From Aporhodopirellula sallentina SM41 (lineage in GTDB: Bacteria; Planctomycetota; Planctomycetia; Pirellulales; Pirellulaceae), in assembly GCF_000346505.1 (NCBI RefSeq), contig NZ_ANOH01000446.1:1-33500 (forward strand): a stretch of DNA of 33,500 nucleotides, given 5' to 3'. Positions 10,169 to 23,715 of this stretch are shown piece after piece (within the stretch, counting starts at the first letter, position 1; every line of letters starts with the position of its first letter). The position numbers and the translations under genes were made by a program. The notes beneath the pieces are model-generated. The model made no database searches and had not been told where the DNA came from. It saw only the letters and a program-made list of their open reading frames with translations.

Positions 10169-11854
10169 TCAACCGATCGTTGCGTGGATCGCACCGTAGC
10201 TCATCGGTAGAGCGATCGTTTGCGGAAGCGATTGATAGAACTTCGCGTCAACGCTTTCGATGGCGACGACCACGTTGGCGTCCGTCGCGGCCTTGACCAT
10301 CTTTTCCGCCTCAGGGCTTCGCACGCCGAGGAAGTTCACCAGGACGTCACCTTTCGCGCTCATCGGATTGAAGCAACGTTCCATATCGGCACGCAGTGAT
10401 CGCACGATCGCTTCCAGGAAGTCGAACGAATCCGACACACTCGCGCAGTAGCTCAACACCCCGGTCGCGTTGGCCTTCACCGGCAATTGGCTCTCAACCG
10501 TCGGCGAGAAGTTGATCCCATCACTGTTCTCTCGAGTTTGTTCGATGATCGAGTCGATCGACCAAAGCTCCAACTCATCGGCGGCACCACGACTCGGCAG
10601 ACGGATATCGTCCCACGGTTCCCAAATACCGATCACGGCCTGAGCCACGATCCCCGCCAAACGCACCAACTTCACACGTGTTTGCATGAACTCAGGCAAT
10701 TGAGCCAACTCCTCATCGGAGTCATGCAAGTGAACGAGAACGTCGATTTCCGCTCGGTTGATGCCAAACGCGTCCATCGACAATGAATGAATTTCTCTCG
10801 CATCCATTCCGAACACCGCCCGCTCGCGATCCCTCAACGATTGATTCGTTTCGAGACATTCGTCGATCAGTTCTTTGTATCGGTCGGGATAGAGCCTCGC
10901 CAAGGCGACTCGAGACGCATCTTGCATCGCGGCGCACAACACCAACCCATCGGCAATCTTTTCGTGCCCGCCTTGTTCGATCATCAGTTCAATCGCCAAC
11001 CCGGCGGCGACGCCTCGCGCCCAAATCAGTCCAAGGTTGAGCGGGGAAGGTTGGTCACTGAGCAACGCCGCCTGAGCGGTCGCGGCGAGTGCCAAACGGC
11101 CGACCCGCTTCTGACCCAATTGCACCACCGCACGTGGAAGATCAGCGATCGGCACACCGCTCTCGTTGTAGAACGGGCTCTTTGCCATGCCGATGATCTC
11201 CTGCGTCAGGTCGTCATTCTTCGCAATCGATTCCGCCAAGGCTTTCGTGTCGACTTCATCCGAACCGCTCATCCGATAGACGTTCAGCGACGTGTCGCAA
11301 ACCGGCACGACCACTTTGCCCGATTTAAAATCGTCCGCAACATCCTGCTGCGTGATTGGAGATTCGGCCCCCCCGTCGTTTGCAATGTCGTTTGCCCCGT
11401 TGACTCCCGCGTCGCTCGCCGGTGTCGCGGAAGTCGCATCTGGTTGCGACGCAGGTTCCTTCGCGAGCGACCTTTCGCGGGCCCTTCGATCCGCGATCGC
11501 CCGAACCTTCATGCTCAGAACCGAATAGTCGATCGGCTTATAGACAATATCATCGATTCCACGGCTGATGAGATCTTTCGCCAAACGTGGTTCGGTAACC
11601 CCGGTCAAAACAACGACCGCGGGCGGGCTCGCCAATTCCATCAGCTCTACCGCGAGAGCATGACCGTTTTGGTTCGGCATTCGAAGGTCGGTAACGACCA
11701 CATCGTATCCCCCCGATTGCGCGAGTTTCGCGGCTTCTTTGCCGTCGGCGGCGGAATCACAACAGAACCCCTCTCGCGTCAACGCGCGAATGGTCAGGTT
11801 CCGAACCAATGGCTCATCATCAACAACGAGTGCGGTAACGGCAGAATCAGACAT
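10169..11854 (-). CDS. Response regulator with HDOD output domain
   Basis: The 561-residue protein starts with a REC domain (about residues 6-125): acidic pair DDE at 12-14, phospho-acceptor Asp56 in VVTDLRMP, and Lys in YKPID. A variable Ala/Asp-rich linker (about 128-180) follows, then an HDOD domain (about 185-400) with YRMSGSDEVD, AKSPFYN and VVQLGQKRVGRLAL. HDOD domains are HD-superfamily relatives thought to act by protein or nucleotide binding in signalling; the usual HD metal motif is not required. The last ~90 residues form an unidentified domain. It is the final gene of the sensory cluster, 59 bases after the hybrid kinase, and is the most likely output of its phosphorelay. No DNA-binding domain is seen. 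Confidence 0.85.
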   Translation of the reverse strand: MSDSAVTALVVDDEPLVRNLTIRALTREGFCCDSAADGKEAAKLAQSGGYDVVVTDLRMPNQNGHALAVELMELASPPAVVVLTGVTEPRLAKDLISRGIDDIVYKPIDYSVLSMKVRAIADRRARERSLAKEPASQPDATSATPASDAGVNGANDIANDGGAESPITQQDVADDFKSGKVVVPVCDTSLNVYRMSGSDEVDTKALAESIAKNDDLTQEIIGMAKSPFYNESGVPIADLPRAVVQLGQKRVGRLALAATAQAALLSDQPSPLNLGLIWARGVAAGLAIELMIEQGGHEKIADGLVLCAAMQDASRVALARLYPDRYKELIDECLETNQSLRDRERAVFGMDAREIHSLSMDAFGINRAEIDVLVHLHDSDEELAQLPEFMQTRVKLVRLAGIVAQAVIGIWEPWDDIRLPSRGAADELELWSIDSIIEQTRENSDGINFSPTVESQLPVKANATGVLSYCASVSDSFDFLEAIVRSLRADMERCFNPMSAKGDVLVNFLGVRSPEAEKMVKAATDANVVVAIESVDAKFYQSLPQTIALPMSYGAIHATIG

Positions 11855-11913: not shown

Positions 11914-13673
11914 TTACGCGATCAATTGACCCGTGTTGGAATCCAACATTTCACGAATCGTTCTTAACAACGACGAAGGATCGATCGGTTTCGATAGAAC
12001 CTGCAACTTTGGCGACGTCTTCTCCCACGTCGACGTGTTTGACTGCACGTCGTATCCGCTGCAGAACAACACCTGCATGTCAGGGCGTACCTTTGCCAAG
12101 TGTTCCGCAACCTCGCGGCCGTTTTTATACGGCATCACAACGTCGATCAGTGCGAACTGGATGGCGTTGAGGTTTTGATCGATCTTTGTGATCGCGTCCT
12201 GACCGTCGACTGCAGCGACGACGTTGTAGCCGGCACTTTCGAGCGATCGAATCGTGATGTCACGGACGCTCGCGTCATCTTCGGCGACTAGCACCGTTTC
12301 GTCTCCTCCGGTGATCGGCGCGTCCTCGACCTCGTCGACACCTTCGTCACTCTCGACCTCGTTCGATGCGACCGGCAGATACAGTTCAAAGGTGGAGCCT
12401 TCGCCGAGTTTGCTCTTCACGCGAACACAACCACCATGTTCTTCCGCGGCGCCGAAGACCATCGATAGACCGAGCCCCGTTCCGTGACCAACCTCTTTGG
12501 TCGAGTAAAACGGCTCAAAAACACGATCGGCAACGTCGTCCGACATGCCGCAACCTTCGTCTTCGACCGAAATGACAACGTAGTTGCCCGGCTGCAACTC
12601 GCACACGTCTCTGCACGACTGCAGTTCGTCAATCTCCACCGTCTTCGAGGCAAGCCGAATGGACAACTTCCCGGAGTCGTTCATCGCGTCTCGCGCGTTG
12701 ATGCAAAGGTTCATCAACGCCTGCGAGACGAGATTCTCGTCCACGAAAACCGTGCTTTCATCGTCGTCCGAGTAAATATCCAGTTCGATCGATGACGACA
12801 GCAATGGCTTCACCAGCATCATCGCCGAATCAAGAACCTCTTGAGCAACACAAAGCGTCTTTTGGGTGTTTGCTTACGACTGAAACTCAACAGTTGTCCG
12901 GTAATCTCAGACGCTCGCGACGTCGCTTCAACCACATGCGTTAGGTCGTTGTACGCCTGTCCTTCAGGGTCAATCTCCTCCATTGCGAAGGACGTGTAGC
13001 CACCGATCGCTTGCAACAGATTGTTGAACTCGTGGGCAACACCACCGGCGAGCGATCCGATCGACTCGAGTTTCTGCTTTTGCCTCAACGCTTGATCGCG
13101 TTGTTCGAGTTGTTGCGTTCGCTCCTGAACCATCGCTTCGAGTTCAACCTGCTTCACCGACGCGGCATTGATCAACCGGCGTTTTTCAATCAACGCGACC
13201 GCGAGCTGCATCACTTCGGCGTTGTCGAAAGGCTTCTTCAGGATCAACAACCGGTCCGAACGACCGAGCCGCCGCGAAATGTCTGCCCACGTGTTATCCG
13301 AATACGCGCTGCAGATCACGACCTGCAGGTTGGGGTCTGCCTGCCAAAGGTGTTCGATCGTCGTCAACCCATCCCATCCGGGAGGCATACGAATATCGCA
13401 AAACGCCAACGTATAGGGACGCCCTTCCATCATCGCGGACAGAACTTTTTGATACCCTTCCTGTCCTTGGTATGCTGAATCGAGTTCCACTTCCAAAGGC
13501 GGTCCGCCTTCGATGTCATTGCTGCCACCCTCGTCATCGCCAAAGAACGCGTTGGCAGCGTCCGCGAGGCTCTGCGTTTCACGGTCGACAGTAAGAATCT
13601 TGCGAAAGTCCTCATGGATCGATGGGTTGTCATCGATGATGAGAATTCTCGGCTTGTCCGTTTCTGATTTCAT
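11914..13673 (-). CDS. Hybrid histidine kinase REC-HisKA-HATPase-REC, split by a frameshift
   Basis: Two overlapping ORFs together make one soluble kinase of about 586 residues. The upstream part (12819-13673) has a REC domain with phospho-acceptor Asp93 (FCDIRMPP), a coiled coil (about 170-200), and a HisKA H-box SLAGGVAHEFNNLL with His214. The downstream part (11914-12822) has the ATPase N-box MNLCINARDAM, G1 box VEDEGCGM, G2 box GTGLGL, and a second REC domain with Asp227 in FALIDVVMP. The join is broken at the A4 run 12860-12863: adding one A restores a continuous TPKKTLCVAQEVLDSAMM reading. Sequencing error is likely. With no membrane segment, it probably receives phosphate from or acts in parallel to the membrane kinases upstream. 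It starts 132 bases after the large PAS kinase. Confidence 0.8.
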
Positions 13674-13805: not shown

Positions 13806-16800
13806 TCATGACATGCACGGGGCGATCTCCAATGCCGGCACGCTTAGCGCGAACGTCGCACCGTGGCGCGGGCCTCGACTCTCTGCAGTGAGCGAGCCCC
13901 CGAGTTCTTGCGCGACGTTTGCCGATGAATGCAGACCGAATCCATGCCCGGTCGCCTTCGTGGTGAATCCATGCCGGAAGATCTCAATCAAGCTTTCTTC
14001 CGCGATACCGATGCCGTTGTCTTCGACGGAGAAGACAACGTGATCACTGACGCGCCGGATCGAAAGACGAATGCATGGATTGGGAACCTCCGCGATGACA
14101 ACCGACTCTTTGGCGTTCTTGATCAAATTCACCAACACCTGAATCACGCAGTGCTTTTCCAACAGACAATCAGGCATGGAGTCATAGTCATGCTCGATCT
14201 GGACACCGTGTCGGCGTAGCGAAGGCAAGTTCATCTTCACCGCTTCATCGAGCAACGCTGACGGTGCGACAGGTTCCTTGGGCGATCGATGTTGAGTGAA
14301 CGTTTTCTGGCTCGCGACGATTTCCTTGATATGCTCGACCTTGTTCATCAGCTCGCGAATCTCGTCCAACTGGGCCTCGCGGTCTCGCGTTGCCGACGCA
14401 GAAAGTTCACTCAAAAATGCGGGGAAGCGTTTGCCTCGTTGGTCACGCGTGAAGTACTCGCCGAGTTCATGTTCATTCTCACGAATCACCGCGGACGCCT
14501 TGGCCAAATGCAAGACCGTTGGCGACTCGATCCGATCACGGATCGCCTGCGTGGACACGTTGATGCTGTTCAGCGCGTTACCGACGTTATGCAAGACGTC
14601 GCCCGCGAGTTCCGCCATCCCTGCTTGGCGTGCAGCGTCTTGGAGTTCGCTGGCGAGAACTTCTCGTTCTCGCTCGGCACGTTTTCGGTCGCTGATGTCT
14701 CGCGCGATCCGGCACGCGTACTCGGAACCACAGAAACTGCCGTAGTTTGTTGATGCTTCGATCGGAAACGACGTCCCGTCACGGCGAGTCATGGTGCTTT
14801 CGTTGGTGAACGACTTGGCCTCACGCAGTTCGGTCCAGTATTCATTCCATGGCTTCTGGCTGACGAGCGGATCGAGGTCCACGATCGACGCCCCGAGCAG
14901 TTCGCTACGTTTGTATCCGAGGGCTTCACAGCACGCACGGTTGAGATCGATCACCGTTCCGAAGCTATCAAAGATGATCATCGTGTCCGATCCTGAATCG
15001 AGCCCCTGACGGAGTCGACGCAGACTCAAATCACGCTCCCAGCGTTCGGTGATGTCAATGAACGATAGCACTGCTCCGGCGTCGCCTTGAATCGAAAACG
15101 GCGTGCCGGTGATCGAAACAATCGTGTCTTGTCCGCAATATCGAATTCGATACTCCTCGTTGCGAACATGTTCGCCTTTGAGAGCTCGCGCAATCGGCAA
15201 CCCCGAACGTTGAACCGGATGCATCGTGATCGGATCTAGGAAGATGAGTGATGACGCCCCTCCCGAATCGCTCTTGAGCGAATCGCACCCTACGCCGAGG
15301 ATCTGTTCCGCCGCCTGGTTGTAGCTGAGCAATTTTCCGTTGGCGTCGATTGAGACGATGCCGGACGAAACACTCTCAATGACCGTATCGAGCGTTTGCT
15401 TTTGCGCGACGAGGTCACGATTGGCAGCGGTCAGCTTGGCGTCCGCATTTTTTCGCTCGGTGATGTCCGACTGAATGGCGATGAAGTTGGTCAGTTCTCC
15501 GTCACGCCCATAAATTGGTCGCACCTGAAGATCCAACCAAATGCCAACGCCATCCTTCCGATAGTTCAAAATTTCGACATCAAAACCGCGTTCATCACGC
15601 ACCGCATAACGCATTTTCTCGACGGTTTCCCGATCCGTATCGGGGCCTTGCAGGAAGTGACCTGGGATGAGTCCCGCGACCTCAGCAAGTGTGTAACCGG
15701 TCAACCGCGTGAATCCTTCGTTGACCCATTCGATCCGTGTGTCCGGTCCGGTGATGACAACCGCATCGTCGGTATACTTCGCGATCAAAGACAGCTTCTC
15801 CGCCTTCGCTTTCGCTTTGGCTAGCTCAATGGACTGCTCGGACAAAGCACTGAACTGTGACGCCAACGTGCGATCCACTTTTTTCGCCAAGACCAAGAAC
15901 ACCGTGATCGAGATGAGCCCCACCGCGAAAATTGACTTGAACCCTAGCGCAACGAGGCCGGTCGCATTGATCGCCGACTGACTCGTGAGAGCCGACAACC
16001 GGTCGAGCAGTTTGGTTTTCGTCGTTGCGTATTGGTGGAGCGCGTTGGCGTGCTCATCACGCAAACCTTCTCGCTCGCTATCGCACTGCAGCCATTCACA
16101 GCATCGTCGGTACAAACCGCCTTCGCCGCATTCAAACCATCGACCGTCGTCGCTGTCTTCGAACCCTTCGCCAAAGAACGCGGTTTCCAATCGAGTCAAA
16201 CTCACCCGAAGGTCCGCATCGTTGCCGTCGTTGGAATATGAGCGATCGAGAATTCGACGCAATCGTGCAAACCGCGGTCGAATCTGATTGTCACGAATGT
16301 CGATCAACGTATCAGGATTGACCGCCGATATCAGTTGGTGTCGCAACAGTCGCAATTCATCGATCTCCTGCGCCTCTTCGGATCGAATCGTGAGCGGCGT
16401 CCACGAACGCAAGATGTCATTGGCCAACACCTTGGCTGGCTCTCCGCTGAGTTGGCGGAATCGGTGCACTTGAGCAGCGACTTCCAACATGCGAGTTTGT
16501 TCGGATGCCACCAACGCGATCTGCAACTCATCGAGCGCTGCATTGGTTTCGGCAATGCAAGATTCGCGATATTGATGAATAGCACTACGCTCTAGGGCCA
16601 ACTCGGCGCATCGCACATTGAGCGTCCGAAGCTGGTTGATGGAAACGTCGACTTGTTCCACGATGTTGGCGATTCGCGGATCAGTTTGATTGGACTTGTG
16701 CAGCAGGTGGGCCATCTCGTTTTCGCGAATCGGCCGCGACGTCGCGTCGGTCGGTAAGCGTTGCCCGCGCAATACGGCAGCTGACTGTCGCACGAACTCC

Positions 16801-17012
16801 TCGACCAACTGGTCGGCTTCGCTCGCAATCTTCGACACGGTTGTACGCAACGCATCGCTGGCAACACGGTCTTGCCGAATACTTACCAGCGACCAACACG
16901 AGGCGATCAGCAACAGCAAAACCGTACTGAGCCCCACCGCCGTCAGTCCCCAAACCAGACCGATTCGATTGCGAGATAGCGAAAACGATCGAACGTTTTT
17001 TGAATCATTCAC
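13806..17012 (-). CDS. Membrane sensor histidine kinase with helical periplasmic domain and three PAS domains
   Basis: I choose the GTG at 17012 (about 1068 residues): GGAGGG lies eight bases upstream, and the codon overlaps the stop of the binding-protein gene (GTGAATGA). Order: TM1 (17-45), a periplasmic region of about 300 residues that is helix-like and Arg/Leu/Glu-rich, TM2 (352-376), three PAS domains (about 405-520, 535-655, 665-775), a dimerisation domain with H-box VLHNVGNALN (His808), a D-x-x-G-K-x-x-P motif (DQRGKRFP, about 857-864), and an HATPase with NLIKNAKES, EDNGIGI and GHGFGLH. The G2 box HGFGLH differs from the usual GTGLGL. Its position after a periplasmic binding protein, plus the helical sensor domain, resembles TorS with TorT. 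The ligand and output are unknown; no receiver domain is attached. Confidence 0.88.
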   Translation of the reverse strand: MNDSKNVRSFSLSRNRIGLVWGLTAVGLSTVLLLLIASCWSLVSIRQDRVASDALRTTVSKIASEADQLVEEFVRQSAAVLRGQRLPTDATSRPIRENEMAHLLHKSNQTDPRIANIVEQVDVSINQLRTLNVRCAELALERSAIHQYRESCIAETNAALDELQIALVASEQTRMLEVAAQVHRFRQLSGEPAKVLANDILRSWTPLTIRSEEAQEIDELRLLRHQLISAVNPDTLIDIRDNQIRPRFARLRRILDRSYSNDGNDADLRVSLTRLETAFFGEGFEDSDDGRWFECGEGGLYRRCCEWLQCDSEREGLRDEHANALHQYATTKTKLLDRLSALTSQSAINATGLVALGFKSIFAVGLISITVFLVLAKKVDRTLASQFSALSEQSIELAKAKAKAEKLSLIAKYTDDAVVITGPDTRIEWVNEGFTRLTGYTLAEVAGLIPGHFLQGPDTDRETVEKMRYAVRDERGFDVEILNYRKDGVGIWLDLQVRPIYGRDGELTNFIAIQSDITERKNADAKLTAANRDLVAQKQTLDTVIESVSSGIVSIDANGKLLSYNQAAEQILGVGCDSLKSDSGGASSLIFLDPITMHPVQRSGLPIARALKGEHVRNEEYRIRYCGQDTIVSITGTPFSIQGDAGAVLSFIDITERWERDLSLRRLRQGLDSGSDTMIIFDSFGTVIDLNRACCEALGYKRSELLGASIVDLDPLVSQKPWNEYWTELREAKSFTNESTMTRRDGTSFPIEASTNYGSFCGSEYACRIARDISDRKRAEREREVLASELQDAARQAGMAELAGDVLHNVGNALNSINVSTQAIRDRIESPTVLHLAKASAVIRENEHELGEYFTRDQRGKRFPAFLSELSASATRDREAQLDEIRELMNKVEHIKEIVASQKTFTQHRSPKEPVAPSALLDEAVKMNLPSLRRHGVQIEHDYDSMPDCLLEKHCVIQVLVNLIKNAKESVVIAEVPNPCIRLSIRRVSDHVVFSVEDNGIGIAEESLIEIFRHGFTTKATGHGFGLHSSANVAQELGGSLTAESRGPRHGATFALSVPALEIAPCMS

Positions 17013-18357
17013 GATCGATTCCCTCCATGACACTGTTCGGGCCGAGGGAATCTGCGCCGGATTGATCGCCCGAAGGCATCGTCTCCGCGAGATCGTCTGA
17101 CGACGCTAGCTCGCCTGCATTTTGCAGCAACACAGGCAACTCGGACCAATTCATCGGCACGACGTTGTTGTCTCGGATGACCGTTGCCCAAACTTGGTGG
17201 CTCGCTTGATGGCGGTAGTGAGTGAAACTCAGAGTGTTAGGGAGCCCGATTGAGAAATCTTCGAGAGCCTCCAACGTGTTTACCAACTCATCTCGACCAC
17301 CCTCATACAATGGCGACTGCAGCGCCACCAATACAACGCGTCCAGCGATGTAGCCTTCCAAAGATCCAAAGCTCGGCTGCACCGCTTCGTTGGCATCAGC
17401 GGCAAACCGCCTCATCGCATTCCGATAGCGTCTCGTCAATTCACAGTCGGTGCTCGGATGTGGAACGACCTGCGTGACGATCACCCCCTCACCGTTTTGG
17501 CCGAGAGAACGAGCCAAGGGCTTCGCACCGACAAAGGAGACACTGAGAAACAACCCTCGGTAACCGTACTGCCTCGCCAAACGAATGAACTTTGCCGCCG
17601 GCGCGTACGCTGCCACCATAATGATTGCCTTCGGCGGCACCTTGTGAAACAAGATCTCAGCGAGGGCGTTCTCAACCGATGTCGTATTTCGGCGATAGCG
17701 ACCGTGCGCGATGGTGTGGATATCTGAATATCCGTGTTGGCGAATCGCGTCGACGCCACCGCTAAAACCTGAATCACCAAAGGCATCTCGCTGGGAAAAA
17801 AACGCGATTTCGCTCGGGTGAATTCCGGCGTGGTTCACCACCGCATCGACCATCGCGGATGTTTCTTCCGCATAGCTGGCACGATAGTTGAAAACATATC
17901 GATCAGGTGGATCACGCCGCAGCACCCCAGCGCCCGTGAATGCGCACAAGAAAGGCACCTGACATCGATTTGAAATGGGCACGGCCGCGATCGCGGTTGG
18001 TGTTCCCACGTTGCCAATGATCCCGAGCACCTTCTCTTGATCGATCAGCCGTCGCATGTTGATCACGGTTTGTTTGGGTTCGTATCCATCATCCAGAACG
18101 ACTAACCGAAGTCGCCGCCCATCGATTCTGCCGAGATGATTCGCTTCCGCAAAGGCAACGTCGACTCCCAACTTCATATTGAGCCCCAACTCGGCAGTCG
18201 GGCCGGTTAACGCCGTCGACATCCCAAACACGATCTCGTCGGTGTCTCCACCACGCACCTGTTCAGCGCATACTCCTATTGTCCATACGGTGAGAAGCAG
18301 GACGTTCGCATTGAGAATGCGTTTCGCACGAAGAGATTCTTTGAAACCTGTCATCAC
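17005..18357 (-). CDS. Periplasmic branched-chain-amino-acid-type binding protein (sensor partner)
   Basis: The 450-residue protein has a signal peptide (hydrophobic stretch ANVLLLTVWTIGVCA, about 17-31) followed by a Leu/Ile/Val-binding fold (Peripla_BP_6 type): EIVFGMSTALTGPTAELG, LVVLDDGYEPKQTV, a GIIGNVGTPTA ligand-cleft segment and the second-lobe segment IAFFSQRDAFGDSG. Family members bind amino acids, amides or urea in the periplasm. No permease or ATPase genes are nearby, so transport is unlikely. The gene sits between two sensor kinases: its start (GTG 18357 or ATG 18354) overlaps the stop of the CHASE kinase, and its stop overlaps the start of the PAS kinase. It is therefore best read as the ligand receptor of one of those kinases. 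The C-terminal ~35 residues are a Ser/Asp-rich extension beyond the fold. Confidence 0.85.
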   Translation of the reverse strand: MMTGFKESLRAKRILNANVLLLTVWTIGVCAEQVRGGDTDEIVFGMSTALTGPTAELGLNMKLGVDVAFAEANHLGRIDGRRLRLVVLDDGYEPKQTVINMRRLIDQEKVLGIIGNVGTPTAIAAVPISNRCQVPFLCAFTGAGVLRRDPPDRYVFNYRASYAEETSAMVDAVVNHAGIHPSEIAFFSQRDAFGDSGFSGGVDAIRQHGYSDIHTIAHGRYRRNTTSVENALAEILFHKVPPKAIIMVAAYAPAAKFIRLARQYGYRGLFLSVSFVGAKPLARSLGQNGEGVIVTQVVPHPSTDCELTRRYRNAMRRFAADANEAVQPSFGSLEGYIAGRVVLVALQSPLYEGGRDELVNTLEALEDFSIGLPNTLSFTHYRHQASHQVWATVIRDNNVVPMNWSELPVLLQNAGELASSDDLAETMPSGDQSGADSLGPNSVMEGIDRE

Positions 18358-20819
18358 ATCTCCGCCAAATTTTCCGAGGCATGTGCATCATCGAAAGGAC
18401 TGTCGGCATCCTCTTCCAACTGAATCGCACACACTTTTTCAAACTCGATCTCACGACTCAGCACGAGCGGCAGTACCAACCGGAAACACGCCCCACGACC
18501 GGACTCGTTGTTTTCGATCTCGAGTCGCCCCTGAAGTGCCTTTGCGGTCAGGTCGCACGAGTGCAAACCGAAACCATGCCCGTCATTTTTGGTGGTGAAG
18601 CCGAACTGCTTCAGTTTCGGCAAAACATCTTTCGCGATTCCGGGACCGTTGTCAGTCACCGCGAACTCGACGTAGTCACCACGAATCCGTGTCGACAAGT
18701 GAACCTGCCTTGGCACGTCGTCAATCTCGCGGACAGCGTCTTGTGCGTTGGCTACAAAGTTAATCAGGATTTGCAGCACTTTGTTCCGGTCGGTGACGAT
18801 CGTTGCAGACGAATCCAAATCTCGCTCAATAGCAATCTCGAATTCGCTGTGTCGGCCGAGATTGACCAACGCCGCCTGCTCCATCAGCTCCGCCGCAAAC
18901 TCTCGCGTCAGCACAATCGACGAACTTGCCTGGTCTTGCTGCGCACGAATGATCCGATCGATATGCCCGACGTGATCACCGAGATGTCGATTCTCTTCCT
19001 CCAACCGTTGCTTCTCGCGATCCAACGTCGACGCGATCTGCGTGAGGAAATCAGGAAGCCGTTTACCCTGCTTGTCGTTTTGCAAGTAGTCACTGAGATC
19101 GTCGCGATGTTCGTTCATCACGTCGATGGCTCGCGACAACGTCGATACGGCACTATCCTCGAGCATGGCGGCAATCAAGTTCGACGAAGTGCTTACGCCG
19201 GTTAACGAATTGCCGACGTCATGCAGGACGCTGGTCGCGACCTCCGCCATTCCCGCCTTGTGAGATGCCTTGACGAGTTGGCGGTTGGTCTCGGCGAGTT
19301 CTTTTGCGAAGGCAATCCGCGCTGTTTCATCACGTGCAATCACGATATACCCTTCGCCACCGTCGAACGGGCCGATCGACATTCGACAAGGGAACTGAGT
19401 CCCGTCATCGCGGCGACAACGCACGGCGATACCGTCATCGTTTCTGTGTTCGAGACTCTGATACGCTCTGCTGACATCGATCATGTCAGCGAAACTCAAG
19501 CCCGAGATCAGATCACCAAACTGGACGTCGACCAGATCCGCTTCACCGCGTTTGGCCAACTTAGGCAGAAACATCCATTGCGCCGCGTCGTTGGCAACCG
19601 AGACCACGCCGTCGGCGTTCACAGATAGAATGGCGTCCGATGCGTTCTCCAAAATCGATCGCGTTCGGGCCTCACTCTCCTTCAAGTCGACCGTCATCTT
19701 CCGTGCCAACTCGACCGCGGATTCGCGTTGATTGCCAATACTCAAAACGAACAAAAACAACAGCAGGTCAATCACCAATCCGCAGATCACCACGATGGCT
19801 CGAATATTATTATCGTCAACGTCGAAGAAACTCGGAGTCGTTGCGAAGTCAACGATCCAATCTCGCCCGGATACCGTCAACGCGCTTCGGTGACAGTAAC
19901 CTTTGTCAGATTCTGCGAATCGATCACCACCGTCCGATCCGCTGCTGTAGATCCTTTGCGGATTCGAATCCATCACCGCGTCCCAGATGCGGAACGAAAT
20001 ATCGCTGACGTCGCTACCCACAATTCCCCGCATCAGGTCATCAATACGGAACGCTGCGTACACCCAACCCTTCAATGATTCTTCACGTTGCCCCGGTGTA
20101 GCGACTTCTGTCCCCTTTTCATACACGGGCAGATAACACAACACACCGGCCTGAACGTCTTCTTCGGTTTCCTGCAACAGCGTGATCTTTCCCGAGATCG
20201 TCGCACGCCCCGTTCGAGCCGCACGCTGCATGGCCTCCCGTCGTACCGGTTCGGAATACATGTCGTATCCGAACGCGCGTTGGTTGCGCCAATCGAAAGG
20301 TTCGATATAGATGATCGAAGTATAGAAATCCCGATCGGATTGCGGATAGACACGGTATTCCGAAAAGCCCTCCGCTCGCACCGAATCGATGTGAGTTTGC
20401 AATTCATTTGGTGCAATCACCTTTGCGAATGCAAACGCCTGAATGCCAGGAAAATGTTCGTGTATTTGTCCGGTCTCGACATAGTCATGCCACTCCTGTC
20501 GCGACACATGTTGGCTCGCATGCCAAAACGCAGATCCGTCACGAAGAACTTGCTCGTACTCGAGCATTCGTTCCTCGATGCTGGTTTCAATCTCGGCAAT
20601 TCGATACGCGAATCGCTCTTGATTTCGCCGTTCGATGTGCCGATCCGTTTGATGCCAAATGACCGCGGTAAGTACGAGTGATAACGCCAAGATTCCCCAC
20701 GCCATGCCACGCCGACGGAGAGCATTCACGGCACGCCGCTTGACTCTCTCGCGAACGGACTCGCTACTGCGATAACCGTTTGATCGCAGCTTAATCGGAT
20801 CGGATGGCGACATCAGCAT
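18354..20819 (-). CDS. CHASE-domain sensor histidine kinase
   Basis: The 821-residue protein has TM1 (about 40-56), an extracytoplasmic CHASE domain (about 80-290; FPGIQAFAFAKVI, YRVYPQSDRDFYTSIIYIEP and FGYDMYSEPVRREAM are typical), TM2 (340-361), a PAS domain (about 385-500), a dimerisation domain with H-box VLHDVGNSLT (His533), DKQGKRLP (582-589), and an HATPase with N-box FVANAQDAV, DNGPGI (723-728) and GHGFGLH (747-753). CHASE domains sense small molecules outside the membrane. The ATG at 20819 has GGAGG ten bases upstream and overlaps the stop of the preceding membrane-protein gene by seven bases. The dimerisation and ATPase domains closely resemble those of the PAS kinase in the same cluster, suggesting duplication. 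Confidence 0.9.
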   Translation of the reverse strand: MLMSPSDPIKLRSNGYRSSESVRERVKRRAVNALRRRGMAWGILALSLVLTAVIWHQTDRHIERRNQERFAYRIAEIETSIEERMLEYEQVLRDGSAFWHASQHVSRQEWHDYVETGQIHEHFPGIQAFAFAKVIAPNELQTHIDSVRAEGFSEYRVYPQSDRDFYTSIIYIEPFDWRNQRAFGYDMYSEPVRREAMQRAARTGRATISGKITLLQETEEDVQAGVLCYLPVYEKGTEVATPGQREESLKGWVYAAFRIDDLMRGIVGSDVSDISFRIWDAVMDSNPQRIYSSGSDGGDRFAESDKGYCHRSALTVSGRDWIVDFATTPSFFDVDDNNIRAIVVICGLVIDLLLFLFVLSIGNQRESAVELARKMTVDLKESEARTRSILENASDAILSVNADGVVSVANDAAQWMFLPKLAKRGEADLVDVQFGDLISGLSFADMIDVSRAYQSLEHRNDDGIAVRCRRDDGTQFPCRMSIGPFDGGEGYIVIARDETARIAFAKELAETNRQLVKASHKAGMAEVATSVLHDVGNSLTGVSTSSNLIAAMLEDSAVSTLSRAIDVMNEHRDDLSDYLQNDKQGKRLPDFLTQIASTLDREKQRLEEENRHLGDHVGHIDRIIRAQQDQASSSIVLTREFAAELMEQAALVNLGRHSEFEIAIERDLDSSATIVTDRNKVLQILINFVANAQDAVREIDDVPRQVHLSTRIRGDYVEFAVTDNGPGIAKDVLPKLKQFGFTTKNDGHGFGLHSCDLTAKALQGRLEIENNESGRGACFRLVLPLVLSREIEFEKVCAIQLEEDADSPFDDAHASENLAEM

Positions 20820-21955
20820 GACAGCGTTTCCTCCCGCGACGCGACCGACTGCTCGACCAATCGCTTGAGGTGCTCGACGGCTTCTTGAATCGCTTCGAGT
20901 TCGCGTTGATGGTCACTGTGTTCGGTCCCAAGCTTGGACGCGAGGTCTTTAAACATACTCGGGAAGTGCTTCCCTCGACTGTCTTTGGTGAGATAGTCAG
21001 CGATATCGTTCTTTCGGTCATAGACGGTGTTCGCCAAGTTCGTGAGACTGTTCACGCGGCTCGACCGAGACCGTTCGTGTAGCAAGTTCACCGAGATAGC
21101 GATCCGTTCGAGTAGCGCGTTGATTGCCTCGAGCGCATCGTCGCTCGCCGACAGCGTGTCGGCTAAATCGGTCACCATCGCCTGTAGCGCCGCGTTAAGT
21201 CGATCCTGTTCGACCGCGAGATTGGATGCCGCCGTTGGATCAGGACGCGTTTCAGCGTTCGTTGCCATAGCACCAGCACGAACACGTTTTGCGAATCGAT
21301 CTCGACGGTAACAAATAACGGAAAGGAAACCGGTGGTGATCAACAACCAATTGAGATGCTCGAGCCATTGGTACTCGATTACAATTCGATCGCCATACAA
21401 CGTGTGCGGAAACAACATGCTTCGGAAGACGTAATCCGCCGACGCAAGCAACGACGCCGTCAGCAGTACGCGATAGTCGCGGTACAACGTCAGCATAAGT
21501 AGCGAGATGATGATGCAGAGGTGCGAAACAGCAACGCCGCCGCACAGATAGATAATGACGCCAGACCAAACGACCTGAGCGACCGCGAATGCATGGCGAA
21601 CGATGCGTCTGCCCGCGTACTGCGCCGCGAGCAAAGTGGGTGCGATGCACAGCAAGCTACCGATCGCTGCGATCGACCAAACGTGAACGCCAGGCTTGTC
21701 GATGTCGCTGTTGAGCCTCGACGGACAGAACGCAGTTGCCGCGGCCGAAATCGAAACCAACTGAACGATAGTGATCAGACAAAACACCCAATCGATCCGC
21801 GCCGCATGAACGTCCCTATCGGACGGTCGTGACGCCGCGTTGTCGGTATTTCCTTCCGCTGTGCGGCGAACACGTATGCGTTCGCTGCGCAGCGGAAGGT
21901 GGAATGCCCCAATCATGATTTGCCCCAAACCAAGCTCGTGCATACCGTGCCCCAT
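20813..21955 (-). CDS. Membrane sensor protein with kinase-like dimerisation region but no ATPase domain
   Basis: The 380-residue frame has about five or six membrane segments (57-77, 91-111, 121-140, 142-175, 198-216). The segment LTLYRDYRVLLTASLLASADY resembles (by memory) the FYRDWRVL-type membrane sensor domain found in some bacterial kinases and chemoreceptors. The cytoplasmic part (245-380) is a coiled coil in which YLTKDSRGKHFPSMF (321-335) aligns with YLQNDKQGKRLPDFL and YFTRDQRGKRFPAFL of the two downstream kinases. The H-box equivalent (about 258-280) has no His, and the protein ends where their ATPase domain would begin. It may therefore be a non-catalytic partner that pairs with those kinases. 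The start is uncertain: ATGs at 21955, 21943 and 21916 are all possible, and a strong palindrome lies inside the N-terminal coding sequence. Confidence 0.75.
   Translation of the reverse strand: MGHGMHELGLGQIMIGAFHLPLRSERIRVRRTAEGNTDNAASRPSDRDVHAARIDWVFCLITIVQLVSISAAATAFCPSRLNSDIDKPGVHVWSIAAIGSLLCIAPTLLAAQYAGRRIVRHAFAVAQVVWSGVIIYLCGGVAVSHLCIIISLLMLTLYRDYRVLLTASLLASADYVFRSMLFPHTLYGDRIVIEYQWLEHLNWLLITTGFLSVICYRRDRFAKRVRAGAMATNAETRPDPTAASNLAVEQDRLNAALQAMVTDLADTLSASDDALEAINALLERIAISVNLLHERSRSSRVNSLTNLANTVYDRKNDIADYLTKDSRGKHFPSMFKDLASKLGTEHSDHQRELEAIQEAVEHLKRLVEQSVASREETLSC
21852..21899. repeat. Strong palindrome in the 5' end of the membrane sensor gene
   Basis: Two 20-bp arms (21852-21871 and 21880-21899) are complementary at 18 of 20 positions around an 8-base loop. 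The element covers codons about 19-35 of the sensor gene as annotated. In mRNA it would be a very stable hairpin close to the start of the operon. Confidence 0.7.
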
Positions 21956-23049: not shown

Positions 23050-23715
23050 ATGTTTCGAATTAGTTTAACGACCCTTACGTTTCTATTAGCAATTGGGCTT
23101 TCGCCGCCAAGTGATGCGGCGACAGTCACCCACGTATTCAACCTGACAACAGGCAACGGTTCTATCGTCGGTGGCGAATTCGAGAGCGTCGTTTTTGAAT
23201 ACGACGATATGGCGGGCCTGGAGTTTGATGCTCAACTCTTCGTCGATGGAAGCCAGAGCATCACGCAAGATGCCAATGGTTTGGGGATCACGGGCGGGCT
23301 CCACAACGCGATCATTGATGATGGGGAGTTCGCAACCTTCACCCTCGTGCTGAGCAATATCTTGGGTGGCAGCGTGGCCTTCGACGGTTTTCAGGAAGTC
23401 GAAACGATCGTTGACAGTGGCGCAAAGATCTACAGCATCGACCAGTTCGCTTTCACCACTGCTGACAACTTCTCGCCTGCAAGTGGCACGAACGATATCT
23501 CAGGTACCTCGCCACAAACTTTCAGCGTCATTGCAGAGTCGGGTACAGGCAACTTTTTCCAACCAAGTGGCGTTGGCGTCCAGTTCACGACGTCTCCTAC
23601 CGCCGTGCCAGAACCTGGTTCATTGGCTCTACTCGGAATCGCTGGTGTTGGAATCGCGTTTCGATCTCGCCGTAGGAAAACCGGCTCGATCGAAGCTCCC
23701 GAAGTAACTGCATAG
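23050..23715 (+). CDS. PEP-CTERM exported protein
   Basis: The 221-residue protein has an N-terminal signal peptide (about 1-23, ending SDAA), a beta-rich middle, and a textbook PEP-CTERM tail: VPEP at 186-189, a hydrophobic helix SLALLGIAGVGIAF and the basic RSRRRK (205-210). Proteins with this tail are exported, cleaved and anchored or released by an exosortase, and are frequent in planctomycetes. The tail runs about 11 residues past the basic cluster, slightly longer than usual. The ATG at 23050 has AGAGG six bases upstream. The gene stands alone in a repeat-rich region; no exosortase or polysaccharide genes are adjacent. The middle domain is not recognised. Confidence 0.88.
   Translation: MFRISLTTLTFLLAIGLSPPSDAATVTHVFNLTTGNGSIVGGEFESVVFEYDDMAGLEFDAQLFVDGSQSITQDANGLGITGGLHNAIIDDGEFATFTLVLSNILGGSVAFDGFQEVETIVDSGAKIYSIDQFAFTTADNFSPASGTNDISGTSPQTFSVIAESGTGNFFQPSGVGVQFTTSPTAVPEPGSLALLGIAGVGIAFRSRRRKTGSIEAPEVTA

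Follow-up and report, generated by a model that had tools for sequence, protein, structure and literature searches.

A conserved pseudokinase-like membrane protein without H-box and ATPase domain is encoded beside a CHASE histidine kinase in Aporhodopirellula sallentina

Histidine kinases are usually taken to be homodimers. What, then, is the role of a kinase-like protein that carries neither the phospho-accepting histidine motif (H-box) nor an ATPase domain? Such a protein is predicted from orf1, a reverse-strand gene in a 33,500-nucleotide stretch of the genome of Aporhodopirellula sallentina SM41 (contig NZ_ANOH01000446.1, positions 1 to 33,500; hereafter the window). The gene overlaps the start of a gene for a CHASE-domain histidine kinase. 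An earlier note, made from the sequence alone, described orf1 as a kinase-like membrane protein and suggested that it might form mixed dimers with the two kinases encoded downstream. Our comparisons show that orf1 is conserved in four species, and we conclude that it is probably a noncatalytic kinase partner and not a broken gene.

To place the cytoplasmic part of orf1, we built a model of the dimerization and histidine phosphotransfer (DHp) domain from four kinases, leaving orf1 itself out. The model matches orf1 residues 273-368 with an E-value of 3e-17. The region scores 63.6 bits; when its residues were shuffled 1000 times, the 995 shuffles that obtained a score reached 11.8 bits at best. 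It contains the motif YLTKDSRGKHFP, which reads YLQNDKQGKRLP in the CHASE kinase and YFTRDQRGKRFP in the PAS-domain kinase, where Phe replaces Leu; the earlier note had seen this shared segment correctly. As judged from these alignments, the region has kinase ancestry and is homologous to the DHp domains of both downstream kinases. No Pfam model matches orf1 significantly (the best, at E 0.05, stays under the cut-off), and NCBIfam assigns it to no family. The HisKA model of Pfam also missed this type of DHp domain, with its VLHNVGN H-box, in the four kinases scanned (the CHASE and PAS kinases of the window, L036 and L077).

Of the features of a HisKA-type histidine kinase, orf1 has the DHp region and lacks the H-box and the HATPase domain, as the earlier note had described. 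At the H-box column the window protein has Glu, the orthologues in genomes G001 and G199 have a gap and Gln, and that in G003, which we take to be Rhodopirellula rubra, has His. The statement that this position holds no histidine is therefore right for three of the four proteins and wrong for R. rubra, in which the rest of the motif is gone. Indeed, the VLH(N/D)VGN surroundings found in the kinases are missing from all four. Neither Pfam nor our local model gave a significant match to a HATPase_c or catalytic ATPase (CA) domain in orf1. Run without a filter, the local HATPase model found no match in the orf1 proteins of the window and R. rubra and scored the remaining two at -1.0 and -1.5 bits. 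We also looked for a HATPase remnant past the end of orf1 and rejected it: there is no room for one because the CHASE-kinase gene begins before orf1 ends, and the local model gives nothing significant. The overlap of seven bases that had been reported is present; by longest open reading frame (ORF) it measures 7 nucleotides in the window and R. rubra and 13 in G001 and G199. The two genes are presumably cotranslated.

Truncation might have been a local accident, and the earlier note had proposed searching other genomes for the same architecture. The truncated form occurs in 3 of the 13 genomes of the genus, in which all first-look candidates were scored, and in 4 of the 241 genomes of the family (the window, R. 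rubra, G001 and G199), in which up to seven candidates were scored per genome. All of these matches have E-values of 6e-123 or better, and the next match in the family is a full kinase at 1e-54. The architecture is thus not a local truncation. Orthologues with an intact H-box and HATPase domain had been set beforehand as the sign of a truncated pseudogene; none turned up in the genomes searched. Draws of 396 genomes from the order and 294 from the phylum, with five to six candidates scored per genome, yielded no new truncated relatives at E<=1e-40. Open frames of at least 483 residues are held by 13 of the 15 matching genomes in the order draw and by 8 of 9 in the phylum draw, the rest being the window and G001. 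Short frames that we met were one of 323 residues in G067, one of 180 residues at a contig start in G026, and one of 376 residues in G042 that matches only in its DHp type.

In all four genomes, orf1 is followed in the same order by genes for the CHASE kinase, a periplasmic binding protein, the PAS kinase, a hybrid kinase with a receiver (REC) domain and a REC-HDOD regulator. Strand and spacing suggest that the cluster is one operon. Identity between the orf1 orthologues is 39-61%. The window and R. rubra proteins are the closest pair (61%), with a nonsynonymous divergence (dN) of 0.33 and a saturated synonymous divergence (dS) of about 2.4. For the same pair, four neighbouring genes are 61-71% identical (the hybrid kinase is left out here and below). 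In more distant pairs orf1 falls to 39-46%, compared to 50-65% for the neighbours; orf1 therefore evolves faster, yet under clear constraint. In the dN/dS comparison the G001 coding stretch began one codon late and that of G199 one early, which affects only the N-terminal end. The four orf1 proteins form one clade with support of 100/100 on long branches, both in a tree of the sensor domain (42 rows) and in a tree of the DHp domain (30 rows). Local truncation or decay into a pseudogene was considered and rejected on the strength of the four orthologues and of a dN that is low against the saturated dS. These comparisons confirm orf1 as a real, conserved gene that is kept by selection.

In orf1 a poorly conserved linker joins a polytopic membrane domain to the DHp-like region. 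Between the window and R. rubra, the membrane domain is 74% identical (dN 0.19) and the DHp-like region 68% (dN 0.24), whereas the linker and the N-terminal tail reach 24% and 26%. By this pattern of conservation, orf1 looks like two kept modules joined by a drifting linker. The hydropathy profile of each of the four proteins contains several strongly hydrophobic segments but gives no clean helix count.

Where does the membrane domain come from? It matches longer kinase frames directly, at E 1.1e-22 within the same genome and at values as low as 1.2e-36 among relatives; three of the six rows of the local membrane model are orf1 proteins, so that its E-value is non-independent. Against the four orf1 proteins we set 38 distinct relatives, which are not all independent of each other, leaving uncounted those loci whose ORF runs past the fetched stretch. 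The local HATPase model also matches 36 of the 38, the exceptions being L013 (a 325-residue frame in G042) and L057 (641 residues). Seven columns of the domain are His in at least 90% of the relatives. Three of these are lost in every orf1 protein, one to Cys and one to Tyr, and the other four are kept in one, two, three and all four of them, respectively. In the HFH pair after GGRIET, the first His is kept in three of the four orf1 proteins and the second is Cys in all four, at positions where relatives have His in 100% and 97% of cases. This Cys147, together with Cys59 and Cys103, is invariant in orf1; at the three positions Cys occurs in 0%, 5% and 13% of relatives. Loss of histidines and gain of cysteines suggest, from the alignment, that the ligand of the domain was changed or lost. 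No Pfam model covers the membrane domain in orf1 or in the four relatives scanned, and the best 25 of 70 and of 87 NCBIfam families listed for two full kinases with this domain all lie on the kinase part.

The sensor domain is widespread and has the signature GGRIETHFHxFGSLAFLAxYRD (L036:2507-4126, L037:1490-3043, L077:1259-3112 and others). Several sensor-domain genes are preceded by a small gene that, by eye, resembles a redoxin gene. The Redoxin model matched one of these weakly, below the cut-off (L036:4123-4881), and gave no match to another (L037:822-1544). In G240 and G229, which are without orf1, a full-length hybrid kinase with an orf1-type sensor domain lies on the other strand near a binding protein/PAS-kinase pair (L083:8948-11932 and L084:8468-11419), and these kinases possibly hint at the route by which the domain entered the cluster. 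G042 encodes a 325-residue protein (L038:1664-2641) with an intact ETHFH signature, an H-box-like end and no HATPase match; it is perhaps another truncated kinase from a decaying gene.

If orf1 has a kinase partner, the neighbouring CHASE kinase is the most obvious candidate from its distribution. Matches to this kinase with E<1e-270 occur only in the four orf1 genomes among the 241 of the family (up to four candidates scored per genome), and the next match stands at 8.5e-185. Matches to the binding protein occur in 22 of the 241 genomes, and at four loci of other genera (L083-L086) this protein adjoins a kinase of the same DHp type in the absence of orf1. As comparators we used two CHASE kinases of the same architecture without orf1, G001b (L078) and G174 (L082). 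The DHp domains of the four orf1-linked kinases share 0.41 identity with those of the comparators, which share 0.65 with each other. The CHASE domain (0.51 versus 0.52) and the PAS domain (0.37 versus 0.40) differ little by the same measure. The linked kinases read GNS(L/I)(T/N)GV(S/N)TSS where other aligned kinases of this type have GN(V/I/A)L(N/T)S(V/I)N. Compared with four others, the PAS kinases of the cluster show little shift (DHp 0.45 versus 0.51, HATPase 0.51 versus 0.59). The DHp shift of the CHASE kinase fits a co-adaptation to orf1, as far as domain identities can tell.

From these observations we favor a reading to which we give about an even chance: orf1 would be a conserved noncatalytic subunit, derived from a histidine kinase, that pairs through its DHp-like helices with the DHp domain of the CHASE kinase, the product of the gene that orf1 overlaps, and tunes that kinase's balance between kinase and phosphatase activity. 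Mixed dimers with the kinases are plausible. In such a dimer orf1 would act as a dead protomer and shift the balance of its partner, presumably the CHASE kinase rather than the PAS kinase. The CHASE-kinase chain would bring the only phospho-accepting histidine and the only ATPase domain to the dimer. Output would therefore depend on the mode, cis or trans, in which that kinase phosphorylates. A cis kinase could still fire; a trans kinase would be silenced in the mixed dimer, which would make orf1 an inhibitor. The altered, Cys-bearing membrane domain might set the time or place of pairing. A bolder version, which we regard as tentative and on the doubtful side, is that orf1 is a dedicated natural "dead half" of an asymmetric histidine kinase. 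The lack of phospho-acceptor and ATPase would then be its function, acting through pairing as a filter between kinase and phosphatase output or between cis and trans phosphorylation, with the sensor site rebuilt from His to Cys and the DHp domain of the partner co-adapted. A subunit conserved in nature without either catalytic part would offer a clean native system in which to ask what DHp pairing achieves by itself and whether a dead protomer silences the kinase, the phosphatase or both. The case of orf1 also cautions against taking every short "kinase fragment" of a planctomycete genome for a pseudogene.

How does orf1 compare to described systems? In the RetS-GacS and DivL-CckA pairs both partners are full-length kinase-like proteins, and in split kinases the parts complement each other. 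The comparisons that follow draw on excerpts of the published reports. RetS-GacS and DivL-CckA resemble the proposed role of orf1 in that one kinase-like protein controls another kinase by direct contact (PMC9491836, PMC12675982). Split histidine kinases, in which kinase functions are divided over two proteins as in Hik36-Hik43 (PMC7656254) and which have been modelled (PMC3591291), are a different case: the CHASE kinase is already complete, with H-box and HATPase, and orf1 supplies no catalytic part. The nearest likenesses are pseudokinases. RocA of group A Streptococcus is an accessory pseudokinase that interacts with CovS in the membrane; it has six putative transmembrane segments and a DHp domain, and if overexpressed it stays functional after loss of the CA domain (PMC7028121). 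It shares with orf1 the noncatalytic architecture of membrane segments and DHp, but the excerpts describe a degenerate CA domain and a dispensable DHp histidine, where orf1 has neither H-box nor CA. FasC pairs in a two-hybrid test with FasB, a kinase-like protein of the same locus (FasBCA), much as orf1 would with its cluster neighbour, and a fragment with only the transmembrane and DHp parts, FasC(1-286), complements a fasC mutant from a plasmid (PMC12675982). Native FasC, as reported there, carries a HATPase domain and depends on its His246, whereas orf1 is without HATPase domain and H-box. In evolved Corynebacterium glutamicum, a frameshift in the CA domain of ChrS leaves a protein that boosts signalling by way of the paralogous kinase HrrS and does not need its His for this (PMC9491836); this too is a pseudokinase of membrane and DHp parts, but according to the excerpt it is a laboratory mutant and not a conserved gene.

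Being kinase-derived, without catalytic parts and conserved as a gene, orf1 probably belongs with RocA- and FasC-like proteins. Pseudokinase partners are known as a kind, and the earlier note went too far in calling such a partner new. What sets orf1 apart is that it naturally lacks both catalytic parts. Among the matches listed in our search of open-licence literature in PMC, no natural conserved kinase-like protein was without both H-box and CA domain; the mixed kinase pairs found in print consist of full-length proteins or laboratory truncations.

Several results weigh against the proposed pairing. For evolved ChrS, which has no working CA domain, a two-hybrid test detected no significant heterodimerization, although heterodimers are reported for the native proteins (PMC9491836). 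The HATPase domain of the linked CHASE kinases has shifted too (0.46 identity to the comparators, compared to 0.59 between them), and the DHp shift is measured against just the two comparators, six further CHASE kinases having a different, unusable DHp type. That shift could instead reflect insulation of the CHASE kinase from the PAS kinase in one cluster. The orf1 DHp region is no closer to the CHASE kinase (E 5.7e-7, 23%) than to the PAS kinase (E 1.2e-8, 24%), and its best DHp matches are kinases of other genomes. The R. rubra protein has its histidine at the H-box column, if without N/D-V-G-N after it. In ordinary kinases, a helix relays the signal straight from the membrane to the DHp domain. 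The linker of orf1 is 24-27% identical to that of the window among orthologues, with indels and length changes, which argues against such a rigid helix and fits a tether better. Together with the loss of most marker histidines from the membrane domain, this weakens the second sensor input that the earlier note had envisaged. Structure prediction offers little help: a model of the DHp region from six sequences is helical, with a mean predicted local distance difference test score (pLDDT) of 72 and a predicted template modelling score (pTM) of 0.44, and a Foldseek search of the PDB with it found no match below E 0.4. The full-length AlphaFold model, from two sequences, is unusable at a pLDDT of 40. 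A sequence search of the PDB with the DHp profile gave a best E of 0.036, which is not significant, with one entry named as a histidine kinase among helical proteins.

Other readings of orf1 deserve weight alongside the favored one. A homodimer of orf1 might be a membrane receptor or scaffold for some other partner, such as a receiver domain of the cluster or the binding protein, and not a kinase subunit. We consider this unlikely, even if orf1 is kept with the whole cluster in four genomes, beyond the CHASE kinase alone, and DHp domains do contact receivers. Receivers dock at the H-box part of the helix, which is not conserved in orf1, and the co-occurrence is with the CHASE-kinase type (4 of 241 genomes), not with the more frequent binding protein. 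Alternatively, orf1 may contact the CHASE kinase as a sensor, by way of its membrane domain, while the DHp-like region merely dimerizes orf1. In conservation the membrane domain matches the DHp-like region, and it has three invariant cysteines that are rare among relatives; a simple dimerizer, however, would need no kinase-specific sequence, yet the YLTKDSRGKHFP stretch keeps its kinase form, and we rate this idea a little lower than the receptor.

Phosphotransfer is less probable again. Here His293, invariant in the four orthologues as LLH followed by E, D or Q, would be phosphorylated by a kinase of the cluster, a role like that which the FasC authors propose for His246 of FasC itself in the excerpt of their report (PMC12675982). 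His293 lies 17 residues past the H-box column, at a place where kinases have no conserved residue, and its invariance comes from four sequences only. The notion that orf1 is a truncated kinase heading for loss strikes us as very improbable. It could draw on the loss of the H-box and of several family-conserved sensor residues, and on the faster divergence of orf1 in the distant pairs. Against it stand the open frame in four species, a dN far under saturated dS, an identity in the closest pair that touches the range of the four neighbours, and a single origin in both trees. A noncatalytic kinase partner accordingly remains our preferred description of orf1; an effect on CHASE-kinase output may follow if the two proteins pair. 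The features of the locus are collected in Table 1.

Table 1. Positions of orf1, its parts and the genes of its cluster within the window
Feature	Position	Strand	Remarks
orf1, pseudokinase-like membrane protein	20813..21955	-	380 aa from first ATG; orthologues found
Overlap of orf1 and CHASE-kinase gene, 7 nt	20813..20819	-	
Polytopic membrane sensor domain, aa 52-217	21305..21802	-	local model; common to many catalytic kinases
DHp-like region without H-box, aa 273-368	20852..21139	-	local DHp model
Glu276 codon	21128..21130	-	aligned with phospho-accepting His of the kinases
His293 codon	21077..21079	-	invariant in 4 orthologues; LLH then E, D or Q; 17 residues past H-box column
YLTKDSRGKHFP motif, aa 321-332	20960..20995	-	strongly conserved
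Inverted repeat with G-rich loop across orf1 start	21916..21932	-	conserved
CHASE-PAS-DHp-HATPase kinase	18354..20819	-	intact H-box; proposed partner
Periplasmic binding protein (Peripla_BP_6)	17005..18357	-	
Triple-PAS histidine kinase	13806..17033	-	
REC-HisKA half of hybrid kinase	12819..13673	-	split in window
HATPase-REC half of that hybrid kinase	11914..12822	-	
REC-HDOD response regulator	10169..11854	-	

The start of orf1 likely lies at the ATG at 21916, which would give a protein of 367 residues, because a GGGG run and the following CAARTCATG are kept there in all four orthologues. An inverted repeat of 6-8 bp with a GGG or GGGG loop spans this start in all four species (window, L034, L035 and L076). 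Two base changes occur among its six core pairs, and both keep the pairing through G-U. RNA folding z-scores for the four species are -0.06, -0.89, -3.81 and -2.00. The repeat may serve to switch translation around the ribosome site.

Farther down the cluster, the REC-HisKA and HATPase-REC ORFs of the hybrid kinase (11914-13673) overlap by 4 nucleotides in the window. The gene is a single ORF of 585 residues in R. rubra (L034:3500-5257) and G199 (L076:10654-12411), and in G001 it encodes 469 residues with no match to the last REC domain. A frameshift, a sequencing error or a genuine division of the gene could each explain the split in the window. On the forward strand, positions 23050-23715 of the window encode a secreted-looking protein whose tail, VPEPGSLALLGIAGVGIAFRSRRRK, looks PEP-CTERM-like.

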